Positions 3,108 through 31,434 of a stretch of DNA of 35,312 bases are shown in pieces. The notes beneath the pieces were generated by a model. The model saw nothing but the letters and a program-made list of their open reading frames with translations. It ran no database searches and was not told where the DNA came from. Positions within the stretch are counted from its first letter, which is position 1. The number at the start of each line of letters is the position of its first letter. Where the stretch lies: IMG/VR virus record IMGVR_UViG_3300023179_000289, positions 1 through 35,312 of that record. One strand, 5' to 3'. Made by a program: the position numbers and the translations under genes. Origin of the DNA: a virus.

Positions 3108-3108
3108 T

Positions 3109-4338: not shown

Positions 4339-4341
4339 TAA
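4326..4341. repeat. Dispersed palindrome, copy 1 (spacer TTAA)
   Basis: CTATCG-TTAA-CGATAA in the gap between the lysin-like gene and the gene at 4347, ending 5 bases before its ATG. The TTAA spacer makes the whole core symmetric. Confidence 0.85.
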
Positions 4342-4346
4342 AAACT

Positions 4347-4691
4347 ATGAGTTGCGGAAATTCCAAAAGTTCTAAATGCAATCCGTGCGGCCCAAGTGAA
4401 GACGCAATGAATGAGATTGCTAATCGTGCAGCTTACTACGCTCGTATAGCAATCGAGGCTGTTAATCAAGCCACAACTGAACCAGAAACTTGGGAATATG
4501 TTTCTGATGGAACTCAAACTACATTTAATATTTCCGAAGGCGTAAGTCAAGTTAGCGGGGGATATATTGTTCACATTGATGGGGTATATCAAAAACCATC
4601 AAATTATTCAATAAATAATACCGCACCTAAAACACTTGTCATGTCAACTCCAGTTCCAGCGGGATCGGAAATAACAATAACCACTCATTAA
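4347..4691 (+). CDS. Small tail appendage protein with Cys-rich N-terminus
   Basis: 114 residues. The N-terminus MSCGNSKSSKCNPCGP has three Cys in 14 residues and precedes a helical stretch (AMNEIANRAAYYARIAIEAV). The C-terminal half is beta-rich, with TFNISEG, GGYIVHIDGVYQKPSNYSI and EITITTH, a pattern seen in phage fibre modules (a VHIDGVYQ-type strand pair). The same Cys-rich start appears in the protein at 6596, which suggests a shared attachment tip. It lies just before the tailspike gene, 2 bases apart, and may be its adaptor. Confidence 0.5.
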   Translation: MSCGNSKSSKCNPCGPSEDAMNEIANRAAYYARIAIEAVNQATTEPETWEYVSDGTQTTFNISEGVSQVSGGYIVHIDGVYQKPSNYSINNTAPKTLVMSTPVPAGSEITITTH

Positions 4692-4693
4692 AT

Positions 4694-6592: not shown

Positions 6593-6595
6593 TTT

Positions 6596-7402: not shown

Positions 7403-9408
7403 TGCCAGCAGAAGGATCAGTCTTTGATGGATTCACAAGTATCATCGCGCAAGACGCAGATACTCATCCATCGTATTTACCAGAATCTGTAGTATCAGAA
7501 TCGGTAAATAGGACATTCCGAGGTGGTATTAACCGGACAAGACCAAGCATTCGGAACATACCGATTATCGCTGGAGCGGGACAAGATGAGACTATCGTTA
7601 ACGATATTCTTGGTGGTAGTTTCCAAGGCGCGTATCCGTATCGGGCGACTAACTTTAGAACAAACGATGGGATTCTGCTATCAGTATCTGGGATTATCTA
7701 CTTCCTCAAGATCGTAAACAACCGAGCATTTGCCTACAAGATCATCGAAGGTAACGATCCGGGTATGATGCACACATGGTTCGTGCAAGCTGAAGATCGG
7801 GCGTATATCCAAAATGGCTACCAGAATGCGATAGCATGGGATGGAGTATTAGGAACTCTGACAGCAAATGAAATCCAAAACGGAGACTACTGCGAGATTG
7901 TATCGGTCGGAACTACAGACTTCACTATAATCGGCGCACCATCCAATACAGTTGGCGTTAAGTTCACCGCAGTCATCACAGACACTCAAAGAGGAACGGG
8001 AACAGGAACAGTCAAGCTGCCTGCCTACCGACTGAATCCATACTTGGCAAAGATGCCGATTGGAACGATCATGGAGTATGCCTTCGGGCGGGTCTTCGTA
8101 GCTGATAGGTTCAACCAAATCTACGCATCTGACATCATTTATGGTGGTGGGTTTACTGACACAAAGAATACCGAAAACTTCACAGAGATTGGATATTGGG
8201 CAGAAGGCGGGGCATTCTCAACACCTGCCATGATGGGAAATATCACAGGGATGAAGGTCATGCCACAGATTGGAACTAACCTTCGCGGCCAAGGCGAGCT
8301 TGTAGTCCTTACTGGTAACGGAGCGTTCTCAATGGATGTGTCTATCCCAAGAAGCCAATGGAATACTTCAAATATCCAGCGCATCTCACTCCTTGGGCGA
8401 GGATGCACATCTCCATACCTTGGACTTGCCAACTCGGAGCTTTGGTTTAGGTCACACGATGGTTGGGCATTCTACTCCAACAGTCAATCTGAGTTTGCCA
8501 GATACTTCTCACTTCGTAAACTATCGAGGGAAGTGAACAAGTGGGTATCAAATGATACCCCATGGTTGAAGCAATTCGCTTCTACGATGTTTTTCAACAA
8601 CTATATTATCAGCACAGTAGCACCACAGACCTATCGCGCAGAAGGTGTAGAAGGGCTGAATAGGTATCATAGGGGTATGGTAGTTCTCGACCTCGACCAA
8701 TCTTCTTCACCCGCACCGGATGCACAGCTTCAATTTCGTTGGAATGGTATCTGGACTGGCATTAGACCAACTCAACTTCTTACTGCATTGATAACAGGAG
8801 AAAAAAGGGGATTCGGATTCTCGTTTGATAAAGACAACAAGAACCGACTTTACGAGTTCACCATAGCCCAAGGTGACGACTACGGCCCAAATGGAAGCAG
8901 GCAGATTGATTCCTTCTTCACAACTGGTAGGTATGACTTCAATCGAAGCGGGGCTACCAACAAGTTCCTCCGCAAGAAGATTACTGGTGGAGAAATGTGG
9001 ATGAGTGAGATTAAAGGACAGGTAGAAAGCGATGTTGATTTCCGTGCTGACTCTAACCCATGTTGGTCACAACTAAAAGTTCCTACGACATTCGGGTGTG
9101 ATCCATGTTCACCAGTAGTAACTGAATGCTTTCCACAACGAGGCGGTAATCGCTACAAACGCTACAAGTTTAACACGCCAGACCCAAGTGAGTGTAATGA
9201 CTTAGCAGGCATTCCATCGGTAGAAGGAAGCGAGTTTCAAATCAGAGTTCATTTAACCGGAGCAGCTACAGTTGACCGAGTAAGGTTGATGGCAAACATC
9301 AAGAACAACGATGACTCTCCAGTTGGTGACTGCCCCGAAGAAAATCAAGAATGTGAACCATTTTTGTGTTGCCAAGAGAAATATTGGGAATACAATATCG
9401 TAAATTAA
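7402..9408 (+). CDS. Nozzle-like tail protein (tail tubular protein B type)
   Basis: 668 residues. The chain reads as a strand-rich, propeller-like structural protein (GELVVLTGNGAFSMDVS, RISLLGRGCTSPYLGLANSELWFRS, FASTMFFNNYIISTV, GFGFSFDKDNKNRLYEFT). Its size, N-terminal segment on initial parameters (YRATNFRTNDGILLSVSG) and neighbours fit podoviral nozzle proteins such as T7 gp12, though this is a fold-and-context call. Residues about 153-204 hold an inserted small beta domain (NGDYCEIVSVGTTDF...GTGTGTVK) shared with the tailspike at 4694. The C-terminus is Cys-rich (CDPCSPVVTEC, CPEENQECEPFLCC), perhaps for bonding to the Cys-rich fibre starts. A palindrome copy lies at 7592-7607. Confidence 0.6.
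   Translation: MPAEGSVFDGFTSIIAQDADTHPSYLPESVVSESVNRTFRGGINRTRPSIRNIPIIAGAGQDETIVNDILGGSFQGAYPYRATNFRTNDGILLSVSGIIYFLKIVNNRAFAYKIIEGNDPGMMHTWFVQAEDRAYIQNGYQNAIAWDGVLGTLTANEIQNGDYCEIVSVGTTDFTIIGAPSNTVGVKFTAVITDTQRGTGTGTVKLPAYRLNPYLAKMPIGTIMEYAFGRVFVADRFNQIYASDIIYGGGFTDTKNTENFTEIGYWAEGGAFSTPAMMGNITGMKVMPQIGTNLRGQGELVVLTGNGAFSMDVSIPRSQWNTSNIQRISLLGRGCTSPYLGLANSELWFRSHDGWAFYSNSQSEFARYFSLRKLSREVNKWVSNDTPWLKQFASTMFFNNYIISTVAPQTYRAEGVEGLNRYHRGMVVLDLDQSSSPAPDAQLQFRWNGIWTGIRPTQLLTALITGEKRGFGFSFDKDNKNRLYEFTIAQGDDYGPNGSRQIDSFFTTGRYDFNRSGATNKFLRKKITGGEMWMSEIKGQVESDVDFRADSNPCWSQLKVPTTFGCDPCSPVVTECFPQRGGNRYKRYKFNTPDPSECNDLAGIPSVEGSEFQIRVHLTGAATVDRVRLMANIKNNDDSPVGDCPEENQECEPFLCCQEKYWEYNIVN
7592..7607. repeat. 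Dispersed palindrome, copy 3 (spacer TTAA), in coding region
   Basis: CTATCG-TTAA-CGATAT inside the nozzle-like gene, encoding T-I-V-N-D-I; the symmetric core TATCGTTAACGATA is intact. Confidence 0.8.
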
Positions 9409-9413
9409 ATCCA

Positions 9414-9932
9414 ATGGACAATCAAGATTCAAGCCCTGCAATTACATTTCCAAATGTTCCAGATGACTTCTGTCCAACTGGTAACTGGCAGAATGTATTT
9501 CAGCAATTCATTGATGAAGTTCTTACTAACGGAACAATCAATGTGCCGGGGCTTGGCGATGTAACTCCACAGCAAGTTGCTCAAATCAACCAAACTCTTG
9601 CTGACCAGCAAACGCAGATTTCGGCAAACACGACGAACATTGCCAATCTTACTACACAGGTTAATGCTATTCCTGTCATTAAAGCGCGTTATGGTAATAT
9701 CGGCAGTGTTCCTGTTGGTGACTCTATCCAGACTGTATCGTTTGCTGCATTGCCTTCGGCGACCTACGGAATTTCTATTACACCTACCTGCAATGCAACG
9801 ATTGGAACTTCTGCTACACCATTGTTTGCTTTGGTTGATGGCAGCAAAACAACTACAGGATTCTCTATCCGTGTAGAAAACAACCTTTCTCAAATAACAA
9901 GCGTGGACTGGATGGCGGTTCACACTTCGTAA
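9414..9932 (+). CDS. Short tail fibre protein with coiled-coil stalk
   Basis: 172 residues from the ATG at 9414 (MDNQDSSPAITFPNVPDD), chosen because it follows the upstream stop by five bases; longer starts would overlap that gene. Residues about 55-85 (VTPQQVAQINQTLADQ and ISANTTNIANLTTQV) form a heptad-like, Asn/Thr-rich coiled coil typical of trimeric phage stalks. The C-terminal about 85 residues (ARYGNIGSVPVGDS, ITPTCNATIG, VDWMAVHTS) look like a compact beta-sandwich tip; endings of the W-x-A-V-H type are common in fibre heads. Trimeric adhesin or fibre role is inferred. Confidence 0.55.
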   Translation: MDNQDSSPAITFPNVPDDFCPTGNWQNVFQQFIDEVLTNGTINVPGLGDVTPQQVAQINQTLADQQTQISANTTNIANLTTQVNAIPVIKARYGNIGSVPVGDSIQTVSFAALPSATYGISITPTCNATIGTSATPLFALVDGSKTTTGFSIRVENNLSQITSVDWMAVHTS

Positions 9933-9959
9933 TAAACAAGCCATAAAGAAAATAAACAT

Positions 9960-10124
9960 ATGACACCACTAAAAGGAACTGATCCGAAGTTGACGAGCGG
10001 AGGCTCACCCACTCGCGGAATGATTCGTGAAGGTATGGGAAACATGAACCCACCTAACACTGGCAAGAACCCATACTCCAGCGCACCGCTTCCTAAATCT
10101 GGCAAGCCAGTAGGCTCAAAATAA
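9960..10124 (+). CDS. Small Gly/Pro/Lys-rich structural-region protein
   Basis: 54 residues with no predicted fold: M-T-P-L-K-G-T-D-P-K followed by GGSPTRGMIREGMGNMNPPN and a KSGKPVGSK tail. Low-complexity basic peptides of this kind occur between tail genes in many podovirus-like genomes, function unknown. The gene starts 27 bases after the fibre gene with an A-rich leader and ends directly in front of palindrome copy 4. Confidence 0.5.
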   Translation: MTPLKGTDPKLTSGGSPTRGMIREGMGNMNPPNTGKNPYSSAPLPKSGKPVGSK

Positions 10125-14677: not shown

Positions 14678-17600
14678 ATGAGCATTCGTATTGAAGACCT
14701 CGTTTTCGATGGAGGAGGCAACAAGGTATCTATTGATGATCTTGTATTTGATGAAGGAAAGCAGCAAGCATTCCAAGAACAGGCAAAGATCAACGAATTC
14801 AAGCGAGTCCCAGAGATGATCAATCTCTCTGGCGGTCTTCCTGTAGGCGGAGAGCCTATGGTTGGTGGCCCAGATATATTGGCTATGGAGCCGGGGCAAA
14901 CCAAGACCTTCATGGAAGGTGAACCAGTAAAAGTAGAAAGTGAAAGTGGACGAGGAAAAATCTCTTCTTTTGTTGAAGGCAAACCAGTAGAGGTTCGTCG
15001 CGCCCAAGCAATTGATATTGGTGGTAAGATTATCCAAGAACCAATTAGCCCAGATGGGATGACGCTGGACTTCCGAGGGAATCTGATCAAAGAAAAGACC
15101 AAGGAACTTCAGTCTGCTTCTGGTCTTCCATTCTCTGAATACATGAGCAAGTCCAATGCTCTGCGTTCAGAGTTGTCCAAACTACAGCAGGATCAGCGGA
15201 AGCATGAGGCTAATCAATTAGACTTCTTGAGTAGATTGATTACCGGAAAAAAGGGAGTCTCTGTAGATATAGAGACAGGGCTTGGAGAGGAAAGAGTAAC
15301 TGGAGCAGAAGGTAAAATCACAACTGTTCCAATCCGAACAAGGACTGGCGCGGCCATTAAGGCTATCGGTGATCAGCGCGAGTTCATAGACAACATTATC
15401 GGAAACGATAAATTTTTGGACTACATCAAGACCAAGGGGATCGACACTCCGGGCATGATGTCGCGGATGGCTGGTCAGTATCTGAATATTGGAGAAGCAC
15501 CAGATAGGATTGCTGAACTAAAACAGAATCCAGAAGTAAGGAAGCTCGCAGAGGAATGGGCGATGACAACTCCAGATTTCATGGATACCGCTACGGATAT
15601 CTTCAAGCGAGCATGGGATGGATACGCTGGAGCAGTTGGGTCTGGAACTATTGGCCCGATTGGTATGCTATTGAAGGAAGCTGGATTTGAGCAGTCGGGG
15701 CAATCGCTAATCGAGGCTGCTGAATATGCAGACCAAATGAGACTGAAAGGTCAAGACCCAAGAAAGGTTGGAGCATTAGCTCAGTTCAGCAGAGATGTGT
15801 CCAGCGGACTTGGGTTTACTGGAGCTGCAATCGTTACTGGTGTATTAGGAAATACTGCTCGCGCTGGTCTTGGCTTGAACTCTGCAAGAGCAATTGATCT
15901 ATTTCAAAAAGCGAACACACTTACATTCACTGGACTTAACTCTGCATGGCAGGGATACTCAGAAGCTAAAGCAGATGGAGCTACTGATGATCAAGCAAAG
16001 CAAGCTGCATTATTTACTGGCCTTACTCAAGCTCCATTGGAACTGGTATCTCCATTACAAAAGTGGATAAGTAGATTTGATGGTAAGCAACAGACACGTT
16101 TATACAAAGGTCTTTTTAAAGCTGCCGAGGCAATCGTTGAAGGAACTGAAGAAGCATTTTTTAATGAAATGCCACAGCAGATTGCTGGAAATTTGGTTAA
16201 GAAGTTTGTTTACAATCCTAACCAAGACATCTTTGAAGGAGTAAAATATTCCGGTGAGGTTGGCGGGGCATCTGGTTTAATAGCGTCTATATTTACACAG
16301 ATGATTGCTGGTAAAAAAGCAAAGACCAAAGCAATACAAGGTGATCAACAAGGTTCAGCGGAAACTGATATTGAATCTAAAGCAGATGCTATTGCTGACC
16401 AGTTAGCTCCAGATGCAGTATCTGATCTGGCGCAACAGATGACTGCCGTGAGCGGAGAGATCGACAATCTTAAAGAGGAGATTGCTAACGACGAGATGGG
16501 GCTACAAGCGATTGAAAAGACCGATCCAGCATACCAAGCCGCCGAACTAGCACTGAACGAAAAGAAAGCCAACCTCGCGCAATTACAGGCCCAATTCGAT
16601 AAGCTATCTGCAGGCCCAGCAGAGGCTAAGGAAGCACCATCGGCAGGAGAAGTAAAGCCATCCGCTACCAAGGAAGAAGCTCAAGCCAAGATCGAGGAAC
16701 TCAACAAGGAGTTCGACGCATTGGATGAGAACGACCAAGCGGGGATTGATAGGGTAAACAAAGCTCTCGCAGTAGAGCAGAATAAACTCGCTGAACTTAC
16801 TGCTATCGAGCAAGGCGTCGAACCACAAGGCACAACTCCAACTCGTCAACCACAACTACCAGAGTCTGGACGCAGATCACCATTCGGAACCTTCTATCCA
16901 GAACGCCCAGTCCTCCAAGCGTTCATGTCTGCTACAGACAAGGTTATTGGGAAGATTCAAGCTACAGGTAAACGGGCGCAGAAGCTGAAGAACTCTATCC
17001 GAACAGCAGTAGCAAACAACGCTGGTTTCTTGGCAGGCACAAATACTCAAGTTATCTCCTCCGAGGAATACAATAAGCTGACTGGGAATAAACTTTCCGC
17101 TGATAGTGGAACATACAAAGCTGTCTACTTCAATGGTAAGAAGTATCTAGTTATCCCAGATGTAAACGTCCTACAGCAAAGAGCTATTCAAGGAGAACAA
17201 CGGGCGGCAAGTAGAGACGCTGCACTGGATCAAGAGTCACGGGCAGCAGCCAAGAAACTGGAAGAGGAGATGATCCATCTCTCCATGTTCCAAGGTATCC
17301 AAGACGAGTATAAGGCTCTCAAGAAACCTAAACTCACAGAGCAGGAATACATCGTAAAGCGGCTTGTTGATATAGCTAAAGAAGTAAAGCGCACGAATCC
17401 AAACGCACTGCCGGGCGTATCTGAAGTCTACTTGAATCAAAAGAACAAGAACCTCGATGACCTTACCTTCTCTCAAGAGTTCATGCGAATGGTTGCACAG
17501 CGTGTAAGGACGGGGCAGATCACCGAGGATTTGAATGCTATCAGAGCAGCAGAGAAAGAAGCATTCTCTGACAAAGATAAAGGAATAATCAGGGCATGGA

Positions 17601-20600
17601 AGGACTCACTCCTCAATGCTCTCCAGTTTCTCCGAAACTCCATCGCTCGCTACCTTGGAAAAGGAACCTCGACTAGAGAAGTAGAGAAGATGCTGAACAC
17701 GATGAATACCATCTTGGATGAGTATGGCATCGTGAAGGGTGAGGCTAACTACGAGTTTAAAGATTACTCTGACGCTCAACCTAAAGGTGAAGTGAAGGTA
17801 GCAGAAGTTGCGCCGCTCACTGAGCAAGTTGCGGAAGTTGATAAAAACAAAGTCAGAAGTATTGAAGAGGCCAGTCAAGAGACTGGAGTTCCTCAAGAAA
17901 AGATTCTTGCTGCCGCTCAACGTGGAGAGATAGCAGCGGCAAAAGTTGGAAAGAATTGGAGATTTGGTCAGCGAGCAATAGACGAAATCAATTCTAAATT
18001 ATCGGAAACGATAACTCCAGCAATCGAAGCGAAGGCCCAGCCATACTACGAGATATTTGAAATATTCAACAAGTATGGAGAAAATCGCAGGGAAGAAATG
18101 ATTCAAGCCACTGCTGACAACCCAGAGCAAGCCGCACAACTAATACGTCAGACTGACAAATACAGAAGACTTGCAACGCTAAAAAGAAACAAACAGATAC
18201 GTTTGTTTTCTATGGGGCAACCTGCTGTTAAAAGACTTCCGGGCCAATCTGGAATCATTGCAGAGGCAGGCGTAACTCCAGAAGGTCAACCAATGTCCAA
18301 GAGGTCTGAATCTGCAATGAAGCGGATCAGCAATGGAATAGTGAGTGACTTGAATAGATTGGTGGAATCCTTAAAGCCAAAAGAAAACAAGGCACTCCAA
18401 GAGTATAAGTCTAAAACCACAGAGAAAGGCAAGACATATCCAAGACATTTGATCTCTCCGTATTCTGTAGCCGCTAATCTATTCACATCGAATGCATTCA
18501 CCGCTGGAACAAATGCACTAAACAAAATCTTTGAAGGCAATCCAGATGCAGACTTCTTTAGAGTAGCCCAAGACATGGGCGGCATGGATGAGGCAGCAAT
18601 CCAGCGAGCATACAGCATCAACTCTGAAGAGCAGTTGGTTCTTTCTCAACTGATGTATAAGATGATGCCAACATTCATTGGTCAAGTAATGGATTCAAGT
18701 ATGCCATTGTCTGCCCGTGAAGCATTTGCATTGGATGCAAGAAATGTAGAAGCTAATCTTGCAAGGAAAGTAACCTTATCGCTTCGTGAGTCTGGGCGTA
18801 AAACCCAGTACGCAAATACATTGAGGAATATCGGTGGCGCGGGAATGGCAATCCAGTCCTACAAGTCCAGCATCATTGATGCAATGGGCAACATCTATGC
18901 CCTGACTAAAGTTCCATTTGAAAACATCGCCAATGTAATCAGAGGTGATCGAAGGAAGTCAGTAGATAAAGTAGCCAACATCCAGAGTGTATTCCGCAAG
19001 GCAGTCTCACTCATCAAGCAATCCCAACTGAATCCAGAGAAGGTGCGCCAATCCATCCGCGCCGAGGTTGGTAAGAAGAAGAACGAAAGCACCCGCAAAA
19101 TCCTACTGGATTTCAGTGCAGGACTCTTCGACACCAAAGAAGACAAGTATGCCAACATGGTAGTTGACCAGACTGTTCAAAACATCCTTGCGATTGGGAT
19201 GAACAGGAAAGGATTCTCGATTGATAATGTCAGCAACTTCATGTATCAGTCCTTCGCTACTGCTGCAAGGCAGATGGGAGTCCAGATGGCTGGAGTTCCA
19301 AAGCAGAAGGCTGGAAAGCGGAGCGGAAAATACTTGGAAATGGTGAAGGCGGTTATCGGAAACGATAATGCTTACAAGGCATTCTTGGCCGACCTATCCA
19401 ACCGGATGGCAGAGAAGTATCAGAGCAAAGAAGCATTCAATAAAGACTTCGGTGATTTATTCAAATCCCTCCGTTCAAACGAGTGGGCAGACAGCTTGAG
19501 AACTCAAGCAATCAAAGACGCAACTGATGCTATCAACTACAAGTTCGCCGATCTATTCCAATACCTTGGAGAGAAGAGGAACGCTACCCAAGCTGGAGTT
19601 CGTGAGCATATCCGCGCAGAGCTTCGCGGAACTGGCGCATCAAACGAACTGATCGATAAATTTATTGCAGATGCAGATGCCTATCTCAACCAAGAAACCA
19701 ACAGGATTCTGACAGATAAACTTGGGTTCACAGTCAACGAAGAGACTGGAAAGGTAACTCCAAAGCCACTGATGAGTAAGAAGATTAAAGAGGAGGCGGA
19801 GGCGCAGTTCAAGAACATCAAGAATCTGAAAGATATCACCAAGCTATCCCTAACCGACGAAGGTAACTTCAAGGAAGGATTGATCAGCAGGATCATTACA
19901 GAGATTGGAATGTCCAAGGAGAATGCGACTGAACTAGCAGACTTGATCTCGTCGGAGATGGATAAGGCACTCATTGCCCAGCGGAGCGAGAACCTGACAA
20001 CCGCCTTGAAGAAGGCTGAAGATATCTTAACGAACAACAAAATCAAGAGTAAGACTAACCAGAGGACATTGCTCCAGCGTCTGATTCAAATGGCGAACAT
20101 GGGAGTTCTGGACTCCGAGATGGTCTACGAAGCATTCCGCCAGACCCATGACTTCCAAAAGAACTATCTTCCATACGATGCTGAATTCGTAAACACGATC
20201 CGTCAGTGGGGTGACAGGATCAGCCTGCTCCCAGAGGGTGTGATCCGAAGCATCGAGGAAGAGAAGATGGGTCGAACTTTGATGGAGAAGAGTAAGTTTA
20301 CGGCATCAGATATAAACTCCAGCTACTGGTATTGGAGTTTGCTATCTCAGATTGGAACTCCAGCACTCAACATTATCTCTGGCGTTAACAACTTGTTTGC
20401 AAACATTGCAGTCTGGTCTTTGTATAGTCCGAAGACAGCTCTTCCAATGATGCAGGCACTCTATAGTGCGGTTGCTGGGAAGCAAACCCCAGCAGTGAAC
20501 TCATTCCTGTATGTCATGCGGAATGGATTGAACCCATCTGGAATGCAGGATGAGAGACGAGCCAAGTATCCGAAGACCAATGTCATTGAGTCTGCAACTC

Positions 20601-22222
20601 CGCAGAATGCGCCAAAGATTGTTTACTATCTAACTAACTTTGGTGATGGGAAGATCAACTTCTTACCAGACTGGATGAACACACTTCTAAAGTATGGGAG
20701 TCCAAAAACATTTATGAGATCGCTTCGGGCAACTGATGCGTTCCTTCGTGAAGTTGCATTTGAAGCAAGGATGGCATCAGCAGGGGCAAGGCCATACGCT
20801 CAACAAGGATTTGATATTGCTAAGAGGCAGGCAGAACTTGAACTCGTATCCTCGCAGGCTAAAGGCAAACAGAAAGAGCAGGAGATAATCATTCGTGCCA
20901 ATGAAATCTACAGGCAGCAGAGAGTAGAAGGTGCAAGACTTGAGTTAGCTCAGATCGAGCAGGATGCATTGGAGACTGTATACAACCAAGACCCACAGGG
21001 TGCTATTGGTCAGATCGCAAACTTCGCAAATGGATTCTTGGCAAAATATAAAGGAACAAAATACATCATCCCATTCACGAATGTTGTTGCGAACGTGACT
21101 AATGAATTCATCAACTACACTCCCGGCTTCTCTCAATTCCGACTATATCAAGCCAGAAAAAATGGAGTAAACGATCCATTCACCCAAGGAAGATCAGACA
21201 AACAATGGGAGCTTGGTATCAAAGGAATGCTTGGCTTTGCAGCATTGGTTGTTCCACTTATCATTCAAGCATTTCAAAGTGGAGATGAAGAAGACCAAGA
21301 GAACAGGCCCGCAATTCAGTTGTATGCTGAAGGGCCACGTGATCCAAAGCAGCAACGAATCTGGGCGCAGAATGGCGGCATCAAGTATTCAATCAGAATA
21401 GGAGACAAATACTTCTCACTTCTTGGAACACCATTGGTCGTCCCGCTTGCTATGTCTGCAATGTATGCAGAGGAAATTCAAGGCATAAAGAAACGCCAAG
21501 AAAAATTAAGTGAGATTGATTATAGTGACCTTGCAGCAAAAGTTCTTTCATCTCCTTTCTCGATTGCATTTGTTGCTGTATTGAACCAATCATTCCTCAC
21601 TGGTGTATCTGATGTTCTTGGACTCACTCAAGCCAAAGACCCAGTTAAGGAAGGTGAAGGAATTATCTCTGGCATCTTGTCTCGTATGATTGTTCCGGGT
21701 GCGCTCCGTGACATAACCAAACTCACAACAAATGAACGAGCAGTTGGAAGCACATGGGCAAGCAACCTTCTAAAAGAAATGCCAGGTTCAATTCACTTCT
21801 TGAATAAAGATGTGAACTACTTCGGTGATCCAGCCAGATACCCATCCATTGTAGCAGAAGAAGGATTTGGTCAAAGGTTGGCGAGCTTGTTTGGTAGGTT
21901 GGCTTCACAGGAAACTGTAGACCCAGCATTCAAGATCATGTATGACATGAACCTTACTCCTCCTTCTTGGGATTCAAGTTTGGAATGGTCTAATGGGAAG
22001 CGCATGACGAAGACGCAGGAGTTGGAGTTTATCCGTTCCGCTGGGCCTGCGATGAGGGATTGGATTGTTGAGAATGAGGAAGCATTGCGTGATCCAGAGC
22101 TTGATCAAGAAGAAAGGCAGAATGTTTTGAGCAATGGAATCAGTGGAATACGCCGAGAGTATAAGGCAGAACTTGAGCAGACATACCAAGACGAGATAGG
22201 TCTTGACTTTGAAAATATGTAG
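14678..22222 (+). CDS. Giant internal virion / ejection protein with embedded HTH-like domain
   Basis: 2514 residues. The start repeats itself: IEDLVFDGGGNK then IDDLVFDEGKQQ. Residues about 585-715 are coiled coil (IDNLKEEIANDE, QAKIEELNKEF). Residues 862-867 read EEEMIH, possibly a relic of a metallopeptidase helix. Residues about 1060-1105 (SIEEASQETGVPQEKILAAA and AAKVGKNWRFGQRAIDEI) match the excisionase/MerR-like HTH_17 pattern. The rest is mostly helical; a hydrophobic helix lies at about 2180-2202 (MLGFAALVVPLIIQAF). Last in the structural operon and by far the largest, it fits a gp16-like protein that enters the cell with the DNA. No lysozyme domain is evident. Palindrome copies lie at 15396, 17999 and 19353. 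Confidence 0.6.
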   Translation: MSIRIEDLVFDGGGNKVSIDDLVFDEGKQQAFQEQAKINEFKRVPEMINLSGGLPVGGEPMVGGPDILAMEPGQTKTFMEGEPVKVESESGRGKISSFVEGKPVEVRRAQAIDIGGKIIQEPISPDGMTLDFRGNLIKEKTKELQSASGLPFSEYMSKSNALRSELSKLQQDQRKHEANQLDFLSRLITGKKGVSVDIETGLGEERVTGAEGKITTVPIRTRTGAAIKAIGDQREFIDNIIGNDKFLDYIKTKGIDTPGMMSRMAGQYLNIGEAPDRIAELKQNPEVRKLAEEWAMTTPDFMDTATDIFKRAWDGYAGAVGSGTIGPIGMLLKEAGFEQSGQSLIEAAEYADQMRLKGQDPRKVGALAQFSRDVSSGLGFTGAAIVTGVLGNTARAGLGLNSARAIDLFQKANTLTFTGLNSAWQGYSEAKADGATDDQAKQAALFTGLTQAPLELVSPLQKWISRFDGKQQTRLYKGLFKAAEAIVEGTEEAFFNEMPQQIAGNLVKKFVYNPNQDIFEGVKYSGEVGGASGLIASIFTQMIAGKKAKTKAIQGDQQGSAETDIESKADAIADQLAPDAVSDLAQQMTAVSGEIDNLKEEIANDEMGLQAIEKTDPAYQAAELALNEKKANLAQLQAQFDKLSAGPAEAKEAPSAGEVKPSATKEEAQAKIEELNKEFDALDENDQAGIDRVNKALAVEQNKLAELTAIEQGVEPQGTTPTRQPQLPESGRRSPFGTFYPERPVLQAFMSATDKVIGKIQATGKRAQKLKNSIRTAVANNAGFLAGTNTQVISSEEYNKLTGNKLSADSGTYKAVYFNGKKYLVIPDVNVLQQRAIQGEQRAASRDAALDQESRAAAKKLEEEMIHLSMFQGIQDEYKALKKPKLTEQEYIVKRLVDIAKEVKRTNPNALPGVSEVYLNQKNKNLDDLTFSQEFMRMVAQRVRTGQITEDLNAIRAAEKEAFSDKDKGIIRAWKDSLLNALQFLRNSIARYLGKGTSTREVEKMLNTMNTILDEYGIVKGEANYEFKDYSDAQPKGEVKVAEVAPLTEQVAEVDKNKVRSIEEASQETGVPQEKILAAAQRGEIAAAKVGKNWRFGQRAIDEINSKLSETITPAIEAKAQPYYEIFEIFNKYGENRREEMIQATADNPEQAAQLIRQTDKYRRLATLKRNKQIRLFSMGQPAVKRLPGQSGIIAEAGVTPEGQPMSKRSESAMKRISNGIVSDLNRLVESLKPKENKALQEYKSKTTEKGKTYPRHLISPYSVAANLFTSNAFTAGTNALNKIFEGNPDADFFRVAQDMGGMDEAAIQRAYSINSEEQLVLSQLMYKMMPTFIGQVMDSSMPLSAREAFALDARNVEANLARKVTLSLRESGRKTQYANTLRNIGGAGMAIQSYKSSIIDAMGNIYALTKVPFENIANVIRGDRRKSVDKVANIQSVFRKAVSLIKQSQLNPEKVRQSIRAEVGKKKNESTRKILLDFSAGLFDTKEDKYANMVVDQTVQNILAIGMNRKGFSIDNVSNFMYQSFATAARQMGVQMAGVPKQKAGKRSGKYLEMVKAVIGNDNAYKAFLADLSNRMAEKYQSKEAFNKDFGDLFKSLRSNEWADSLRTQAIKDATDAINYKFADLFQYLGEKRNATQAGVREHIRAELRGTGASNELIDKFIADADAYLNQETNRILTDKLGFTVNEETGKVTPKPLMSKKIKEEAEAQFKNIKNLKDITKLSLTDEGNFKEGLISRIITEIGMSKENATELADLISSEMDKALIAQRSENLTTALKKAEDILTNNKIKSKTNQRTLLQRLIQMANMGVLDSEMVYEAFRQTHDFQKNYLPYDAEFVNTIRQWGDRISLLPEGVIRSIEEEKMGRTLMEKSKFTASDINSSYWYWSLLSQIGTPALNIISGVNNLFANIAVWSLYSPKTALPMMQALYSAVAGKQTPAVNSFLYVMRNGLNPSGMQDERRAKYPKTNVIESATPQNAPKIVYYLTNFGDGKINFLPDWMNTLLKYGSPKTFMRSLRATDAFLREVAFEARMASAGARPYAQQGFDIAKRQAELELVSSQAKGKQKEQEIIIRANEIYRQQRVEGARLELAQIEQDALETVYNQDPQGAIGQIANFANGFLAKYKGTKYIIPFTNVVANVTNEFINYTPGFSQFRLYQARKNGVNDPFTQGRSDKQWELGIKGMLGFAALVVPLIIQAFQSGDEEDQENRPAIQLYAEGPRDPKQQRIWAQNGGIKYSIRIGDKYFSLLGTPLVVPLAMSAMYAEEIQGIKKRQEKLSEIDYSDLAAKVLSSPFSIAFVAVLNQSFLTGVSDVLGLTQAKDPVKEGEGIISGILSRMIVPGALRDITKLTTNERAVGSTWASNLLKEMPGSIHFLNKDVNYFGDPARYPSIVAEEGFGQRLASLFGRLASQETVDPAFKIMYDMNLTPPSWDSSLEWSNGKRMTKTQELEFIRSAGPAMRDWIVENEEALRDPELDQEERQNVLSNGISGIRREYKAELEQTYQDEIGLDFENM
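15396..15411. repeat. Dispersed palindrome, copy 5 (spacer GAAA), in coding region
   Basis: TTATCG-GAAA-CGATAA, perfect arms, inside the giant gene, encoding I-I-G-N-D-K. Confidence 0.85.
17999..18014. repeat. Dispersed palindrome, copy 6 (spacer GAAA), in coding region
   Basis: TTATCG-GAAA-CGATAA just after the HTH-like segment of the giant gene. It is read in a different frame from copies 5 and 7: codons for L-S-E-T-I-T. Confidence 0.85.
19353..19368. repeat. Dispersed palindrome, copy 7 (spacer GAAA), in coding region
   Basis: TTATCG-GAAA-CGATAA inside the giant gene, encoding V-I-G-N-D-N. Confidence 0.85.
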
Positions 22223-24847: not shown

Positions 24848-25825
24848 ATGAAAAAGAAAGAATTAGAATTGTTCAGCCCAACTCAAGAGGGGGTTATTGT
24901 CCCTCTGTCAACCTACCTCCGTCAAATGGGGGAGTTCGTTAAAACCGAATGGCCGGGGATCAACATCACCGAAGCTCACATCAAGAAGGCATGGAGCAAA
25001 CTTCAGAAGAACGAATACCTTGGCGACGATGCACCAGATGAAATGCTGGAGATGTATGAGAAGATGTCCGCTGACTTGGACATGGCCGAAGAGATGGAAG
25101 AGGAACGCCTTGCCATGCCAGCAGTGGAAGCAGAAGAAGTTGAGGTTGAAGTAACTGAAGACGAACCAGTCAACGAATCCCTCGCCCTTGTGGAGAGCGT
25201 GAAGGATGGATTGGAACTCAGTTCATTCACTCAGAAGTTCGACATCGGATCGGGGATGACTCAGTGCGTTCCCAAAGGTAAGGTAGAGATGAAAGACTGG
25301 GTGGCTGCATTCGCCTTCGGTCTGACTCTGGAGTCTGGCGCACAATGGATCATCGGTGATTCGGTGGTAGCCTTGGAGAATGCAGGGCATGAGGATGTGG
25401 TCAATCAACTCTGCTCCAACTTCAAGAAGTCCTATCCAACTGTCTCTGGTTATGCCCGTGCTTGCCGCGCCTTCCCCGCTGACAAGCGTGATCCTGCCCT
25501 TCCATTCACAGTCTATCGTGAGATTGGCAACGCTAACTTCGGAGACAACAGCACAAAGAAGCAGAATGAACTTCTTGAAGCGGCGAAGACTGAGAAGCTA
25601 TCCTCTACTGAGGTTCGCAACCGAGTGCGGCATGAGCAGGGTAAAGACGACAAACCATCTGGTCATCGCTTCCTCCTTCTCAACGTAGGTAACTTCAGCA
25701 ACTCAGAAGTCCTCCGCTCAATGCCCGAAGAAGTGCAGGAACACCAACTCTTGATCGACCTTGGCGACAAGTCATGGTTTGATCCAACCGAAGGAGAATG
25801 GCTGAAATTCATGAAAGAACAATAA
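24848..25825 (+). CDS. HTH DNA-binding protein, LmbU/KorB-like helical domain
   Basis: 325 residues. Residues about 62-110 are very acidic (EEMEEERLAM, EEVEVEVTEDEP). Residues about 165-265 carry W-I-I-G-D...E...G, F-K-K-S-Y-P-T-V-S-G-Y-A-R-A-C-R-A-F-P...R-D-P-A-L-P-F-T, then QNELLEAAKTEKLSSTEVRN. This order (W-x-x-GD, a T-V-x-x-Y helix, R-x-x-x-L-x-F, L-x-x-A...LS-x-x-E-V/L-R) resembles LmbU-like regulators and ParB/KorB-type HTH domains. The C-terminal 55 residues are a small extra domain. It is the best candidate in the window for the protein that reads the dispersed palindrome, purely by inference. Confidence 0.45.
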   Translation: MKKKELELFSPTQEGVIVPLSTYLRQMGEFVKTEWPGINITEAHIKKAWSKLQKNEYLGDDAPDEMLEMYEKMSADLDMAEEMEEERLAMPAVEAEEVEVEVTEDEPVNESLALVESVKDGLELSSFTQKFDIGSGMTQCVPKGKVEMKDWVAAFAFGLTLESGAQWIIGDSVVALENAGHEDVVNQLCSNFKKSYPTVSGYARACRAFPADKRDPALPFTVYREIGNANFGDNSTKKQNELLEAAKTEKLSSTEVRNRVRHEQGKDDKPSGHRFLLLNVGNFSNSEVLRSMPEEVQEHQLLIDLGDKSWFDPTEGEWLKFMKEQ

Positions 25826-27951: not shown

Positions 27952-28151
27952 TGATTATATTTGTTGTTGATGTGTTGGATGAGTTGATCGAGGACAGACT
28001 GCTTGTTACCTTTGAAGCCGAAGTCTTTCTTGACCTTGGCATAGACTGATCCTTTGCTATGTTTCATGCCAGCTACTTCTAACTTGAGTGCTGACTTGAG
28101 TCGGAGAAGAGCATAAAGCTCAAACTCTTGCGGGGTTTCTACTGTATACAT
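27948..28151 (-). CDS. Small helical protein of unknown function
   Basis: 67 residues from the ATG at 28151 (MYTVETPQEFELYALLRLKS); an ATG 33 bases upstream would add 11 residues but increase the overlap with the neighbour. The sequence is basic and helical: ALKLEVAGMKHSKGSVYAKV, KKDFGFKGNKQSVLDQLIQH. The KGNKQSVLDQL part could be a DNA-contacting helix pair, but this is only an impression. It is coupled to the next gene by ATGA. Confidence 0.55.
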   Translation of the reverse strand: MYTVETPQEFELYALLRLKSALKLEVAGMKHSKGSVYAKVKKDFGFKGNKQSVLDQLIQHINNKYNQ

Positions 28152-28398
28152 AGGTTTCTGTTTGTATAGGTTGTGTGTTCTCATTTGATGCTTTAATGAA
28201 GTTTTCCCTTACCATATAGTAATCTAATACGGCATTGAATTTCTCAGAGAATTCCGGCATATTGGAATAAGACATGAGAGTCACTTTTTTTTCCGACTCA
28301 AAGTAACGCTTTGCGTCTTTGTCTTGCTTAGAGTTATGCCATACGCTCGCGCAGTGGTATGCGTGATTGATGACTTGGTTTTCAAGGAATTTATCCAT
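28120..28398 (-). CDS. Small protein of unknown function
   Basis: 92 residues from the ATG at 28398 (MDKFLENQVINHAYHCASVW), which directly follows RNA leader element A and its A-rich spacer; an ATG further upstream would run through the hairpins and is rejected. Mostly helical (SEKFNAVLDYYMVRENFIKA) with a Lys/Asp-rich part (NSKQDKDAKRYFESEKK). No family recognised. Confidence 0.55.
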   Translation of the reverse strand: MDKFLENQVINHAYHCASVWHNSKQDKDAKRYFESEKKVTLMSYSNMPEFSEKFNAVLDYYMVRENFIKASNENTQPIQTETYVYSRNPARV

Positions 28399-28419
28399 GT
28401 TATTTATGTTTTGGTTTTT

Positions 28420-28480
28420 CCGATTACACCATGTAATCAGACTATTCCCCACTATCGTTTCCGATAATGGAGAATGTGTC
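28420..28480 (-). ncRNA. Tandem-hairpin RNA leader, element A
   Basis: Read on the minus strand. Hairpin 2 comes first: ATTCTCCATTATCG (28475-28462), loop GAAA, CGATAGTGGGGAAT (28457-28444), 14 pairs with wobbles; AGAC before and GTCT after could extend it. Hairpin 1 follows: CTGATTAC, loop ATGGT, GTAATCGG (28440-28420). An A-rich leader (AAAACCAAAACATAAATAAC) then leads to the ATG at 28398. Stem sequences differ from elements B-D but remain paired. Confidence 0.65.
28452..28467. repeat. Dispersed palindrome, copy 13 (spacer TTTC)
   Basis: CTATCG-TTTC-CGATAA at the tip of hairpin 2 of RNA element A; GAAA loop on the transcribed strand. Confidence 0.9.
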
Positions 28481-28483
28481 TAA

Positions 28484-28699
28484 CTACTTCCAGACAGGGC
28501 CGAGGGACTCCAAGTATCTATACATTGGAGTTCCGATAGGGATAAGACGCGACTGACCATCGCGGCGAATCCACTCACACCCAGTTAGTTTTCCATTTTT
28601 GGAATACCAAGCCGAGCATTTCCCAGTGAAGTATGATGAGGTTATCTTGTGAAGAGCAAACCCAAGCATTCCATCAAATGTTACTTTTTGTATTTTCAT
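28484..28699 (-). CDS. Small protein of unknown function
   Basis: 71 residues, coupled to the gene upstream by ATGA (28696-28699). Mixed alpha/beta with two aromatic patches: HKITSSYFTGKCSAWYSKNG, then CEWIRRDGQSRLIPIGTPMY. No family recognised. Its stop (28484-28486) is three bases before RNA element A, so A lies between it and the gene at 28398. Confidence 0.55.
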   Translation of the reverse strand: MKIQKVTFDGMLGFALHKITSSYFTGKCSAWYSKNGKLTGCEWIRRDGQSRLIPIGTPMYRYLESLGPVWK

Positions 28700-29142
28700 G
28701 ATTTTATGGCTACTAAAAGGTTTTCAAAGCAAGCGTGATCGTAGCAATCTTCTGCTGAGTTGAATGGGCCTTGAGACATAGCCATGTCATCATAGTAATA
28801 CCATCCGGGATGTTCGATACCTGTCACTTGGAAGGGATCGACATTCTTGATAGCTTCTTTGATGTTGTTGATGAACTCTTGAACTTCTGGAAGCCAGCAA
28901 TTATCGTTATACTCGATCCAATTACCATCGCGGATCATGTAATCTTGATAGTTGTTAACCTCCTCGCGGAAGGCGGTGTAGTCATAGTCTTTAAGGACAT
29001 CACCTGCTGACATATGAGTGAATGGGCCACCTACCTTGTAGAAGTCATATCTTTCATTGAGCATCTCGATAGTAGCTTCTTCGACATCTATGTATTCATG
29101 TTCATCATAGACTTTTTCTTCTAAGTATTGTTCTCTTGTCAT
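28696..29142 (-). CDS. Acidic protein of unknown function
   Basis: 148 residues, very rich in Asp, Glu, Tyr and Asn (EEKVYDEHEYIDVEEATIEM, DYDYTAFREEVNNYQDYM, FNSAEDCYDHACFENLL). The strong negative charge is like that of small phage DNA-mimic or anti-defence proteins, but no known fold is seen and acidity alone is weak evidence. It is the first gene after RNA element B, whose conserved A-rich leader (AACACGAAAC) ends 20 bases before this ATG. Confidence 0.5.
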   Translation of the reverse strand: MTREQYLEEKVYDEHEYIDVEEATIEMLNERYDFYKVGGPFTHMSAGDVLKDYDYTAFREEVNNYQDYMIRDGNWIEYNDNCWLPEVQEFINNIKEAIKNVDPFQVTGIEHPGWYYYDDMAMSQGPFNSAEDCYDHACFENLLVAIKS

Positions 29143-29174
29143 GTTATTGTATTTGGTTATTGTTTCGTGTTTTT

Positions 29175-29234
29175 CTACTTACACCATGTAAGCAGACTGC
29201 TGGCATTATCGTTTCCGATAACACCAGAGTGTCT
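29175..29234 (-). ncRNA. Tandem-hairpin RNA leader, element B
   Basis: Minus strand. CAGAC, then hairpin 2: CTGGTGTTATCG (29227-29216), loop GAAA, CGATAATGCCAG (29211-29200), 12 pairs with two wobbles. Then hairpin 1: CTGCTTAC, loop ATGGT, GTAAGTAG (29195-29175), eight pairs. The leader continues AAAAACACGAAACAATAACC toward the ATG at 29142. Compared with A the hairpin 1 loop is identical while the stem has changed on both sides. Confidence 0.7.
29206..29221. repeat. Dispersed palindrome, copy 14 (spacer TTTC)
   Basis: TTATCG-TTTC-CGATAA, perfect arms, tip of hairpin 2 of RNA element B. Confidence 0.9.
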
Positions 29235-29236
29235 GA

Positions 29237-29401
29237 CTACGCCCAATACTTGCCGTCACATACGCGAATGACTTGCTTGTCTTTCTTTGTTATGATGGTG
29301 ACAAGTTTTTTCTTGGGAGTGGTGGCGCGGACAACGCCGATCTGTTTGATGGGGATGGCATCGAATAGTTTTCGAGCCTTTACCTTACTTATTTCGAGCA
29401 T
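29237..29401 (-). CDS. Small basic protein of unknown function
   Basis: 54 residues: MLEISKVKARKLFDAIPIKQ, then IGVVRATTPKKKLVTIITKK and DKQVIRVCDGKYWA. Lys-rich with alternating strands, so a small beta-barrel or nucleic-acid-binding fold is possible. The start overlaps the end of the membrane peptide gene at 29389. Its stop is two bases before RNA element B. Confidence 0.55.
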   Translation of the reverse strand: MLEISKVKARKLFDAIPIKQIGVVRATTPKKKLVTIITKKDKQVIRVCDGKYWA

Positions 29402-29472
29402 AGGAATATGACTGCAATGGTGAGTTGAAAGAATAGAACGAACATCAATAGTAATAACTTATCTTTGTTCAT
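29389..29472 (-). CDS. Single-helix membrane peptide
   Basis: 27 residues: MNKDK, then an unbroken hydrophobic stretch LLLLMFVLFFQLTIAVIFLC, ending SK. It overlaps the upstream gene by ATGA (29469-29472) and the downstream gene by 13 bases, so it is likely translated. Function unknown. It resembles other coupled single-helix peptides in this window at 23880, 32177 and 34556 in length and layout, not in sequence. Confidence 0.55.
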   Translation of the reverse strand: MNKDKLLLLMFVLFFQLTIAVIFLCSK

Positions 29473-30146
29473 GCTATAGCTTCTACTGCTTTGCGCTTTT
29501 GGTATCCATGAGGATTGATCCATATGGACGGGAGGTTACTGCGGCGGTAATTGCCATCGCATAAACCACACTCTGCACAATGCAATCCCTTGGCATCTGC
29601 GAGACATTCCATATCGTTAACGAGAGGCTCGGTAGTGACAGTGAATGTGCGAAGGCCGAGGTTCTTAGCATACTCTACATTACCTGCATTTGTAGATGCC
29701 ATGAAGTATCTACCATATGCTTTGGCAAGTGGCGCGGGCATTTGATGCCAGTCATGGAAGTATCCTGTGATACGCTTGGCGAGCTTGGCAATGTCATAGA
29801 CCATTTCCAGAGGAATGTGGGATGGATTACCATATGCGCCGAAGCGGACATAAGGAACAGAGAAGAAATCATACCACTCGCGTGTTCCCATATGGAGATA
29901 ACCATACGAGCCGCGCTGATATGCTCGCCAGATTGCACCGAGAGGATTGTCATTTACATAACATCCTTGCTTAGATGCAAACTCACAGCCATTGCATTGA
30001 TTGTCTGCGTCTGGGCCTTTGCGTGATTCGGTAGGATGCATACGCGCATCCATAATCCAAATCTGAACGCTCTTGCCTGTCTTGCGGTTTTTGCTGTTGA
30101 TTGTAGCGATTGCTACAATGTCATTGGTTTCATGTATAATATACAT
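29469..30146 (-). CDS. Conserved-looking phage protein with two Cys clusters, probable metal binding
   Basis: 225 residues. First cluster CNGCEFASKQGCYV (Cys51, 54, 62) and second C181, C190-A-E-C193-G-L-C196, enough ligands for a metal or iron-sulfur site. Between them lie GAIWRAYQRGSYGYLHMG and VPYVRFGAYGNPSHIPLEMV, segments resembling a widespread phage family of unknown function (a DUF type in which a Cys-rich start precedes a P-L-x-x-x-W-R-A-Y-x-R-G motif). The start follows RNA element C. It overlaps a membrane peptide gene by ATGA. A degenerate palindrome (TATCGTTAACGAGA) lies at 29612-29625. Confidence 0.6.
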   Translation of the reverse strand: MYIIHETNDIVAIATINSKNRKTGKSVQIWIMDARMHPTESRKGPDADNQCNGCEFASKQGCYVNDNPLGAIWRAYQRGSYGYLHMGTREWYDFFSVPYVRFGAYGNPSHIPLEMVYDIAKLAKRITGYFHDWHQMPAPLAKAYGRYFMASTNAGNVEYAKNLGLRTFTVTTEPLVNDMECLADAKGLHCAECGLCDGNYRRSNLPSIWINPHGYQKRKAVEAIA

Positions 30147-30161
30147 TAGGTTTCGTGTTTT

Positions 30162-30222
30162 CCGACATGGTTGTATGTCAGACTGCTACCGACTATCGTT
30201 TCCGATAATCGGTAGAGTGTCT
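30162..30222 (-). ncRNA. Tandem-hairpin RNA leader, element C
   Basis: Minus strand. TTAGACACT precedes hairpin 2: CTACCGATTATCG (30215-30203), loop GAAA, CGATAGTCGGTAG (30198-30186), 13 pairs with one wobble. Hairpin 1 is CTGACAT, loop ACAACC, ATGTCGG (30181-30162). The leader GAAAACACGAAACC follows, before the ATG at 30146. The hairpin 1 loop is of the ACAACC type, shared with D. Confidence 0.7.
30193..30208. repeat. Dispersed palindrome, copy 15 (spacer TTTC)
   Basis: CTATCG-TTTC-CGATAA at the tip of hairpin 2 of RNA element C. Confidence 0.9.
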
Positions 30223-30499
30223 AACTGACCAAGTTTTTAACTGAGCGATGTAACTCTCTAAGTTTGTTAATCCTATCTAACATAGTTGGAGTCCAATCAC
30301 CATTTCCATATCGCGACCATTCTACAGATATTGCATCTTTGGGAATACAAGCTCCAGATGGAATATCGCCATGATAGAACTGGAAGAACCATCTATCTAA
30401 AGTTTGCTTTTTAGTTTCACCAACAGCAAATGTCTCTCTGATGTCTTGTCCTGCCCAATAGAAGATACGGAGTCTCCACTTTAATTTAGTTTTTTTCAT
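30221..30499 (-). CDS. Small basic protein of unknown function
   Basis: 92 residues. Starts MKKTKLKWRLRIFYWAGQDI, then KKQTLDRWFFQFYHGDIPSG, VEWSRYGNGDWTPTMLD and a helical end (RINKLRELHRSVKNLV). Aromatic and basic; no family recognised. It begins after RNA element D, with the conserved leader AACACGAAACAA directly before its ATG, and its end overlaps the 5' edge of element C. Confidence 0.55.
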   Translation of the reverse strand: MKKTKLKWRLRIFYWAGQDIRETFAVGETKKQTLDRWFFQFYHGDIPSGACIPKDAISVEWSRYGNGDWTPTMLDRINKLRELHRSVKNLVS

Positions 30500-30514
30500 T
30501 TGTTTCGTGTTTTC

Positions 30515-30579
30515 GCCGACTGGTTGTAGTCAGCCTGCTGTCCTGCTATCGTAAACGATAACAGAACAGAGTGGCTAAT
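30515..30579 (-). ncRNA. Tandem-hairpin RNA leader, element D
   Basis: Minus strand. TTAGCCACT precedes hairpin 2: CTGTTCTGTTATCG (30569-30556), loop TTTA, CGATAGCAGGACAG (30551-30538), 14 pairs with two wobbles. Hairpin 1 is GCTGACT, loop ACAACC, AGTCGGC (30534-30515). The leader GAAAACACGAAACAA runs straight into the ATG at 30499. This copy uses a TTTA loop instead of GAAA. Confidence 0.7.
30546..30561. repeat. Dispersed palindrome, copy 16 (spacer TAAA)
   Basis: CTATCG-TAAA-CGATAA at the tip of hairpin 2 of RNA element D. Confidence 0.9.
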
Positions 30580-30719
30580 TACTTATCTTCAAGATAGCGA
30601 TATGCTTCTACCCAATCACGGATAGATTTGCGCCAGTATGTATCATGTCGCCATTGCCAATGGCGTTTGATGTTCACCATAAGTGATACTTGGAGTGTAA
30701 ACTTGATGTGATAAGGCAT
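30579..30719 (-). CDS. Small basic aromatic protein of unknown function
   Basis: 46 residues: MPYHIKFTLQVSLMVNIKRH, then WQWRHDTYWRKSIRDWVEAY and RYLEDK. High in Trp, Tyr, Arg and Lys, largely helical. It starts one base after the zinc-ribbon gene and ends at the 5' edge of RNA element D. Real translation is supported by tight packing; function is unknown. Confidence 0.5.
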   Translation of the reverse strand: MPYHIKFTLQVSLMVNIKRHWQWRHDTYWRKSIRDWVEAYRYLEDK

Positions 30720-30960: not shown

Positions 30961-31199
30961 TATAAGCCCTCCGGTTTGAATCCTTCTTCACCGCGAAGAA
31001 AGCCCTTGGCGAATGCTGTAATGCAAGCGTCAAGGACAGCTGCGGGAACATGACCATATGTCATCACATGGGAACCAGCGCTCATTACAGAGTAGCCTTT
31101 ACCATTTCCAATGGACTGACAAGACAGATCAAAGTGGATACCAGTTACATTGTAGAGATATCCGAGTCGATCGACTAGATGTTGTTTTGTTATTTTCAT
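30960..31199 (-). CDS. First gene of the minus-strand operon, unknown function
   Basis: 79 residues. MKITKQHLVDRLGYLYNVTG, then HFDLSCQSIGNGKGYSVMSA and a helical half (VPAAVLDACITAFAKGFLRG). The first part K-Q-H-L-x-x-R-L-x-x-L may be an HTH-like helix pair, but no family is recognised. It starts directly after the leader AACACACGAAACAA, the same ending as RNA elements B-D, about 200 bases downstream of the promoter at 31406-31434, so it is the leading gene of that transcript. Confidence 0.6.
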   Translation of the reverse strand: MKITKQHLVDRLGYLYNVTGIHFDLSCQSIGNGKGYSVMSAGSHVMTYGHVPAAVLDACITAFAKGFLRGEEGFKPEGL

Positions 31200-31259
31200 T
31201 TGTTTCGTGTGTTGTGACTCTGCGTTTGCGTTGTGCTTTACGGGCTTGTCACCGATTGA

Positions 31260-31275
31260 TTATCGAACACGATAA
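31260..31275. repeat. Dispersed palindrome, copy 18 (spacer AACA)
   Basis: TTATCG-AACA-CGATAA, perfect arms, in the leader of the minus-strand operon. Confidence 0.9.
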
Positions 31276-31298
31276 CCAAGCCGCATTAACCGCTAACG

Positions 31299-31314
31299 CT
31301 ATCGTAAACGATAA
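31299..31314. repeat. Dispersed palindrome, copy 19 (spacer TAAA)
   Basis: CTATCG-TAAA-CGATAA flanked on both sides by CGCTAACG as a direct repeat (not an inverted one). It lies about 90 bases downstream of the predicted minus-strand transcription start and 39 bases from copy 18. Confidence 0.9.
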
Positions 31315-31405
31315 CGCTAACGGCACACGAAAAACCGAAACTGAAAACCTAAAATGTTAAATGATCTATTGTCGTAGGAAAACTAACTCTTCCTCGACTA
31401 TGAAT

Positions 31406-31434
31406 AGTGTATCACAACATACCCATTTTGTCAA
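31406..31434 (-). promoter_or_regulatory. Strong sigma70-type promoter for the minus-strand operon
   Basis: On the minus strand: TTGACA (31434-31429), 17-base spacer, TACACT (31411-31406), with TGTGA before the -10 (TGTGATACACT). Perfect -35 and ideal spacing. It drives transcription leftward into the gene at 31199 through a leader of about 200 bases that carries palindromes 18 and 19. Confidence 0.75.

Follow-up and report, generated by a model that had tools for sequence, protein, structure and literature searches.

Intercistronic RNA elements tied to the upstream stop codon in phage operons, and their putative role as ribosome-gated processing or insulating sites

The viral DNA recorded in IMG/VR as IMGVR_UViG_3300023179_000289 (positions 1 to 35,312; the whole stretch of 35,312 nucleotides is referred to below as the window) carries on its minus strand four copies, A to D, of an RNA element, each placed after the stop codon of one small gene and ahead of the ATG that starts the following gene (Table 1). 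That the element is a folded RNA under selection is strongly supported by comparison of its copies, and the upstream stop codon, judging from its position among them, belongs to the anatomy of the element. Its conserved strands allow two mutually exclusive folds, the choice between which may be gated by the ribosome. The explanation that we prefer, with some reserve and by analogy with the RNase III sites of phage T7, is that the terminating ribosome gates an mRNA module between cistrons, which probably acts as an RNA processing or insulating site.

Read in the sense of the genes, the parts of the element follow one another as the stop codon, YAGAC, ACN, the hairpin P1, NA, GUCUG, the hairpin P2 closed by CUG/YRG, and an A-rich tail. 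A short helix, P0 (AGAC/GUCU), closes P1 over a 3x2 internal loop, and P2 adjoins P0 without a linker. The start of the element, GTTAGACACT, coincides in part with the upstream stop codon or comes immediately after it, and B, C, and D share the exact tail AAAACACGAAAC, of which A has a degenerate version. The existence of the four elements and their shared order, proposed in the first-pass annotation of this DNA, are confirmed. The RNA folding z-scores relative to shuffled sequence are -8.7, -5.7, -8.3, and -6.8 for A, B, C, and D, respectively, and the tails of these four elements are predicted to be unpaired with a probability of 0.73-0.96. P1 has 10-15 bp in nearly all copies and is free in sequence, and invariant unpaired bases are few (about A6, C7, and A49), even these varying in distant copies. 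All elements lie where two cistrons meet. Elsewhere in the block many adjacent genes overlap by 4 nucleotides; a pair of block genes mostly either shares such an overlap or is separated by an element, an arrangement suggesting that the flanking genes belong to one shared transcript. The genes downstream of the elements are varied and have no assignable function.

Related loci were collected by a search with the neighbouring helicase, which gave 15 related viral contigs, and by a DNA pattern, which added one more; a covariance model, R1, was built from 34 copies. Applied to 17 related viral contigs, this model, of the kind that the first-pass annotation had called for, detects 69 strong copies, spread over 16 of the contigs. 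Its matches, 2-7 per record in 16 of the 17 whole records, are all confined to one block and lie on the gene strand except for one weak antisense match; the locus without a match starts inside the helicase. In 53 distinct copies standard pairs fill 95.7% of 1172 pair cells, versus 80.3% after shuffling, and both strands of a pair have changed in 177 cells, versus 43.5 in shuffles, none of the 500 shuffles reaching as high; sliding the partner by one to three columns leaves only 7-20 both-side changes. These controls ignore the tree and the copies of the window clade are not independent, while the slid controls preserve relatedness. Moreover, the 29 distinct lower arms of P1 are 100% paired, versus at most 75% when the arms are re-dealt. 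The covarying stems noticed at first sight in four copies are thus borne out in a much larger set. The paired positions of 61 parsed copies comprise 1174 Watson-Crick pairs, 191 G-U pairs, and 3 A-C oppositions. As a G-U pair becomes an A-C mismatch on the opposite strand, the frequency of the former and the rarity of the latter indicate that it is the sense strand that is selected to fold, as RNA, and a hairpin or cruciform at the DNA level was rejected as the main explanation for the same reason.

The element is not confined to close relatives of the window. Three further pattern scans, the candidates from which were checked with models R1 and R2, revealed the same core in the phages L084, L087, L088, and L089 (67-82 kb), in L098, L099, L102, and L136 (mostly 68-69 kb), and likewise in L105, L120, L123, L129, L135, and L086; L130, GC-rich and with three weak matches, was excluded as doubtful. 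In L084, L087, L088, L120, L123, and L129 no protein common with the window was detected in the DNA compared. The P1 and P2 stems of these copies are very different in sequence and still paired, and in the enlarged alignment of 52 distinct copies 94.8% of the cells are paired, with 215 both-side changes versus 53.2. In the copies of L098 (1602-1677) and L102 (3686-3772), and more weakly in L099 10142-10228 (minus strand), a third hairpin, CUGUCAGAUNAUGACAG, follows P2, and an additional A/C-rich stretch precedes the ATG. The element is absent from the helicase relatives L071-L073 (59-66% identity) and from the distant homologues of a 225-aa gene, and no close phage was found in INPHARED; a scan of genome contigs yielded only five chance matches, all without a proper P1. 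Among all families of Rfam 15 none reached the gathering threshold with the elements, and searches by E-value gave no credible match below it either, in agreement with the earlier statement that they match no named family.

The upstream stop codon ends exactly 2 nucleotides ahead of the invariant AG in 55 of the 69 copies, and in 67 of the 68 with an assignable gene the gap is between -2 and +3 nucleotides; 66 stop codons are UAA or UAG. Most of the distant copies tested, in L084, L089, L098, L102, L123, L129, L135, and L136, likewise lie at 2 or -2 nucleotides from the stop. The central CUG can pair either with the YAG on its 5' side, before P1, or with the YRG on its 3' side, after P2. CUG:YRG pairing is present in all 61 parsed copies, and P0 pairing is kept as well; the CAGTCTG motif, already singled out in the first-pass annotation, is the 3' strand of P0, which shows compensatory types AGCC/GGCU and AGCU/AGCU and, farther away, AAGC/GCUU. 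In the distant L135 all three strands have changed in concert, to TCG/CGG/CCG, with the stop still 2 nucleotides off. According to folding energies, from which the balance between P0 and P2 is predicted, the median probability in free RNA is 0.70 for P0 and 0.30 for the extended P2; when the element's first 10 nucleotides, which a ribosome on the stop codon would cover, are masked, the computed values become 0.00 and 1.00. From the conservation of all three strands and these computations we infer that two mutually exclusive folds are maintained and that the ribosome gates the choice between P0 and extended P2. A bolder proposal is that of a novel class of switch at cistron junctions that senses translation termination, in which the YAG/CUG/YRG three-strand exchange, 2 nucleotides from the stop codon, lets the terminating ribosome pick the helix and with it the fate of the next cistron, and which operates in unrelated phages; as a whole, this proposal seems to us rather doubtful.

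In the preferred explanation, that of a gated processing or insulating site, each element would be an RNA module placed where two genes of a polycistronic phage mRNA meet. As the aligned sequences show, the sense strand folds into P0, P1, and P2, followed by the A-rich tail, with the stop codon fixed right before P0. A ribosome terminating at this codon would cover the 5' strand of P0 and force the fold with extended P2; on its departure P0 would close on P1, forming a rod of ~18 bp that contains the fixed 3x2 internal loop. Less certainly than any of the preceding steps, this rod might be the place at which a nuclease cleaves or is retained, RNase III of the host or an enzyme like it being the likeliest. 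The cistrons would then be separated, the upstream message retaining a 3' hairpin and the downstream message gaining a 5' hairpin of its own and an open, A-rich start region. Processing or insulation is favoured because the length and the pairing of P1 are constrained and its sequence is not, because the elements occur between cistrons only, and because the operon has a leader that probably cleaves itself (see below); a P1 of such length and free sequence is what is expected of an enzyme recognising double strands. Among the functions suggested in the first-pass annotation, a putative processing site or stabiliser remains the best. Four features had not been noticed there: the constant place of the stop codon, the competition among the YAG, CUG, and YRG strands, the genome-wide distribution of the palindrome, and the twister-like leader.

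Among the closest known systems are the RNase III sites between the early genes of T7 (R0.3, R1, R1.1, and R1.3), which are likewise intercistronic hairpins repeated along one operon and which, folded for comparison, have a stem of about 10 bp or more and a less structured stretch towards the next gene. The elements, too, are hairpins between cistrons of what the gene arrangement suggests to be a single transcript. They differ from the T7 sites by an additional hairpin, a closing helix that hardly varies, a constant distance to the stop codon, and the A-rich tail, and models R1 and R2 have no match in T7 400-10000.

Several observations weigh against the preferred explanation. The stop-codon gaps of L105 and L120 are larger, 6-11 nucleotides; L123 has copies without full CUG:YRG pairing; the twister-like leader is seen in the clade of the window only; and P0 is nearly invariant, mostly AGAC/GUCU, which is more than RNase III alone should need. 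The last point indicates an additional specific binder, that is, a specific protein or a tertiary contact. Another view is that the element is an operator for a phage or host RNA-binding protein that represses or protects every cistron bearing it. A near-invariant P0 with the internal loop ACN/NA amid freely varying stems would suit such an operator, as would the presence of the same core in phages without detected proteins common with the window. No candidate protein was found, however, and the downstream genes are varied; we regard this view as distinctly improbable.

A stop codon at a constant place and a pair of conserved, mutually exclusive folds would suit a purely translational switch without cleavage, in which termination upstream flips P0 to the extended P2. 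The flip would control whether translation reinitiates, or starts afresh, at the downstream AUG, so that neighbouring genes are coupled or uncoupled. The presence, between most block genes, of either a 4-nucleotide overlap or an element is in line with this possibility. Against it, the start region is predicted to be largely open in either fold, so that the output of the switch is not visible, and the distance between the tail and the AUG varies, from overlapping to 27 nucleotides in the 69 copies; on balance this seems unlikely. The related suggestion of the first-pass annotation, ribosome entry in place of Shine-Dalgarno sites, started from a correct premise, a Shine-Dalgarno-like motif being present at only 4 of the 40 starts in the window. 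It is weakened by phages of the L084 type, in which the element is followed by a Shine-Dalgarno-like AAAGGA before the ATG. Together with the variable spacing between tail and ATG, this means that the element cannot be regarded simply as standing in for a Shine-Dalgarno sequence.

The leader of the leftward operon (31197-31398), strongly conserved in relatives behind a sigma-70-type promoter, looks like a divergent twister ribozyme, a prediction that rests on a sub-threshold score and conserved pseudoknots. The leader scores 34.0 bits (E 5e-6) against Rfam RF03160, below the gathering score of 67.2, and the leader of L018 scores 22.2 bits. The twister core, UAAU...CAAGCCCG...GCAGAG, and both pseudoknots are present: T1, GUGAC/GUCAC(U), is paired in 13 of 13 relatives, and T2, retained in most of them, covaries from GGCUU/AAGCC to GGAUU/AAUCC, being reduced to GGC/GCC in leaders of the L016 type. 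The helix closing the leader, UUUCGUG/CACGAAA, is probably the twister P1, and the same CACGAAA ends elements B-D. In the leaders of relatives a variable hairpin is inserted beside the predicted cleavage site. If the predicted twister is active, RNA processing already operates in this transcription unit.

This neighbourhood also raises the question of whether the elements themselves are a new class of self-cleaving ribozyme adjoining a known one. The twister sister, hatchet, and pistol ribozymes were found by looking near known ribozymes, and the size of the elements, about 65-75 nucleotides, their sites between cistrons, and their conserved core with variable stems would be compatible with such a class. 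The scarcity of invariant unpaired bases, which moreover vary in distant copies, speaks against it, as does the lack of any Rfam ribozyme match to the elements: the twister copy is in the leader, and A-D themselves do not match RF03160. We give a new ribozyme class only a small chance.

Another cis-acting phage RNA of similar size, about 70 nucleotides with two stem-loops, is put of HK022 (PMC9378689). By this likeness the element might be a nascent-RNA antiterminator, its two stem-loops binding RNA polymerase and suppressing termination. However, put occurs once per early operon, near the promoter, and the elements occur in 2-7 copies per record, inside the operon; their stems are free in sequence, and models R1 and R2 have no match in the whole HK022 genome. 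The likelihood of antitermination is therefore slight. Further candidates were rejected. ARAGORN detected no tRNA in the window, and an intrinsic terminator or promoter is not supported, since the elements contain neither a T-run nor a match to a promoter and their tail is A-rich in the aligned copies. No RNA polymerase that would suit an N4-type hairpin promoter was present among the window proteins searched. In the attC sites of integrons, which fold as well, the two ends carry R'' and R' boxes complementary to each other; the elements have a P0 of 4-5 bp only, no outer box pair, and a G-U bias on the sense strand.

The gene content between neighbouring elements differs among relatives, the slot between D and C holding at least six different gene inserts, or none. 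In L013 (3447-3616) a D-type and a C-type element are 20 nucleotides apart, with just a remnant, ATGAACATATAG..., between them; by comparison with L009, which has an accessory gene there, this is a gene deleted down to its ends. In view of the variable gene content, the elements might persist mainly as recombination seams by which accessory genes are swapped as cassettes, the fold being secondary. The PeSLs of T4-type phages, described as composite promoter-terminator motifs (Arbiol 2010 and Comeau 2014, cited in PMC4503421), are also repeated intergenic stem-loop modules at places where accessory genes are exchanged; they differ in that the module holds an early promoter and a terminator stem-loop, neither of which signals was found in the elements. 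Exchange by homology needs no paired stems of differing sequence, the elements have neither a terminator T-run nor a promoter, and the G-U bias shows that selection acts on the RNA strand. Exchange at the D/C slot may be driven by the homology of the copies, which leaves the compensated stems unexplained; as the primary role of the elements, recombination has little probability.

The palindrome that the first-pass annotation placed at the tip of the long hairpin is indeed present there; it is not specific to the element. TATCGNNNNCGATA (TATCGN4CGATA) occurs at 22 sites in the window, versus 0.6 expected, from 4327 to 34411 and inside genes as well, e.g., at 15397, 18000, and 19354 within the gene for a 2514-aa protein. 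Among 59 distinct rows of the window clade it is carried by P1 in 48 and by P2 in 5, P1 has a form with one mismatch in 5, one row has none, and both hairpins never have it. As it is dispersed and also kept in the helicase relatives (59-66% identity) that lack elements, it is not counted as belonging to the RNA motif. It resembles a DNA site that a hairpin tip can readily accommodate, and it is probably a site for a DNA-binding protein of the phage group of the window. A 325-aa protein (24848-25825, plus strand) is, by its genome context only, a candidate for the binder; it is conserved in L071-L073, and L099 and L102 have 35-36% matches to it; a PDB sequence search for a palindrome-binding protein gave no useful match. 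The 2514-aa protein (14678-22222, plus strand), with no Pfam match and a marginal PHROG match only, is probably a giant virion or injected protein.

Table 1. Elements A-D and associated features of the window
Feature	Position	Strand	Structure or remark	Flanking genes, upstream / downstream
Element A	28408-28482	-	P0 UAGAC/GUCUG, P1 13 bp, P2 up to 9 bp, tail degenerate	28484-28699 / 28120-28398
Element B	29162-29235	-	P0, P1 12 bp, P2 9 bp, tail AAAACACGAAAC	29237-29401 / 28696-29142
Element C	30150-30223	-	P1 13 bp, P2 7 bp; begins with UAG, the stop codon of the upstream gene	30221-30499 / 29469-30146
Element D	30502-30577	-	P0 AGCC/GGCU, P1 15 bp, P2 6 bp	30579-30719 / 30221-30499
Stop codon UAG	30221-30223	-	overlaps element C	
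Dispersed palindrome, example	30547-30560		TATCGNNNNCGATA, at the tip of the P1 hairpin	
Sigma-70-type promoter of the leftward operon	31406-31434	-	TTGACA-N17-TACACT, conserved in relatives	
Divergent type-P1 twister ribozyme, predicted	31212-31292	-	predicted cleavage site UAAUG; T1 GUGAC/GUCAC, T2 GGCUU/AAGCC	
Leader closing helix	31203-31332	-	UUUCGUGUG (31332-31324) with CACACGAAA (31211-31203); 3' strand resembles the element tail	

The elements form a family of structured RNAs that Rfam 15 does not contain, present in up to seven copies per operon and common to several phage groups. The predicted natural twister in the leader of a phage operon offers a rare chance to ask what role twister has in a phage, and the fixed link of the elements to the stop codon suggests a general way in which phages may separate or gate genes on one message.

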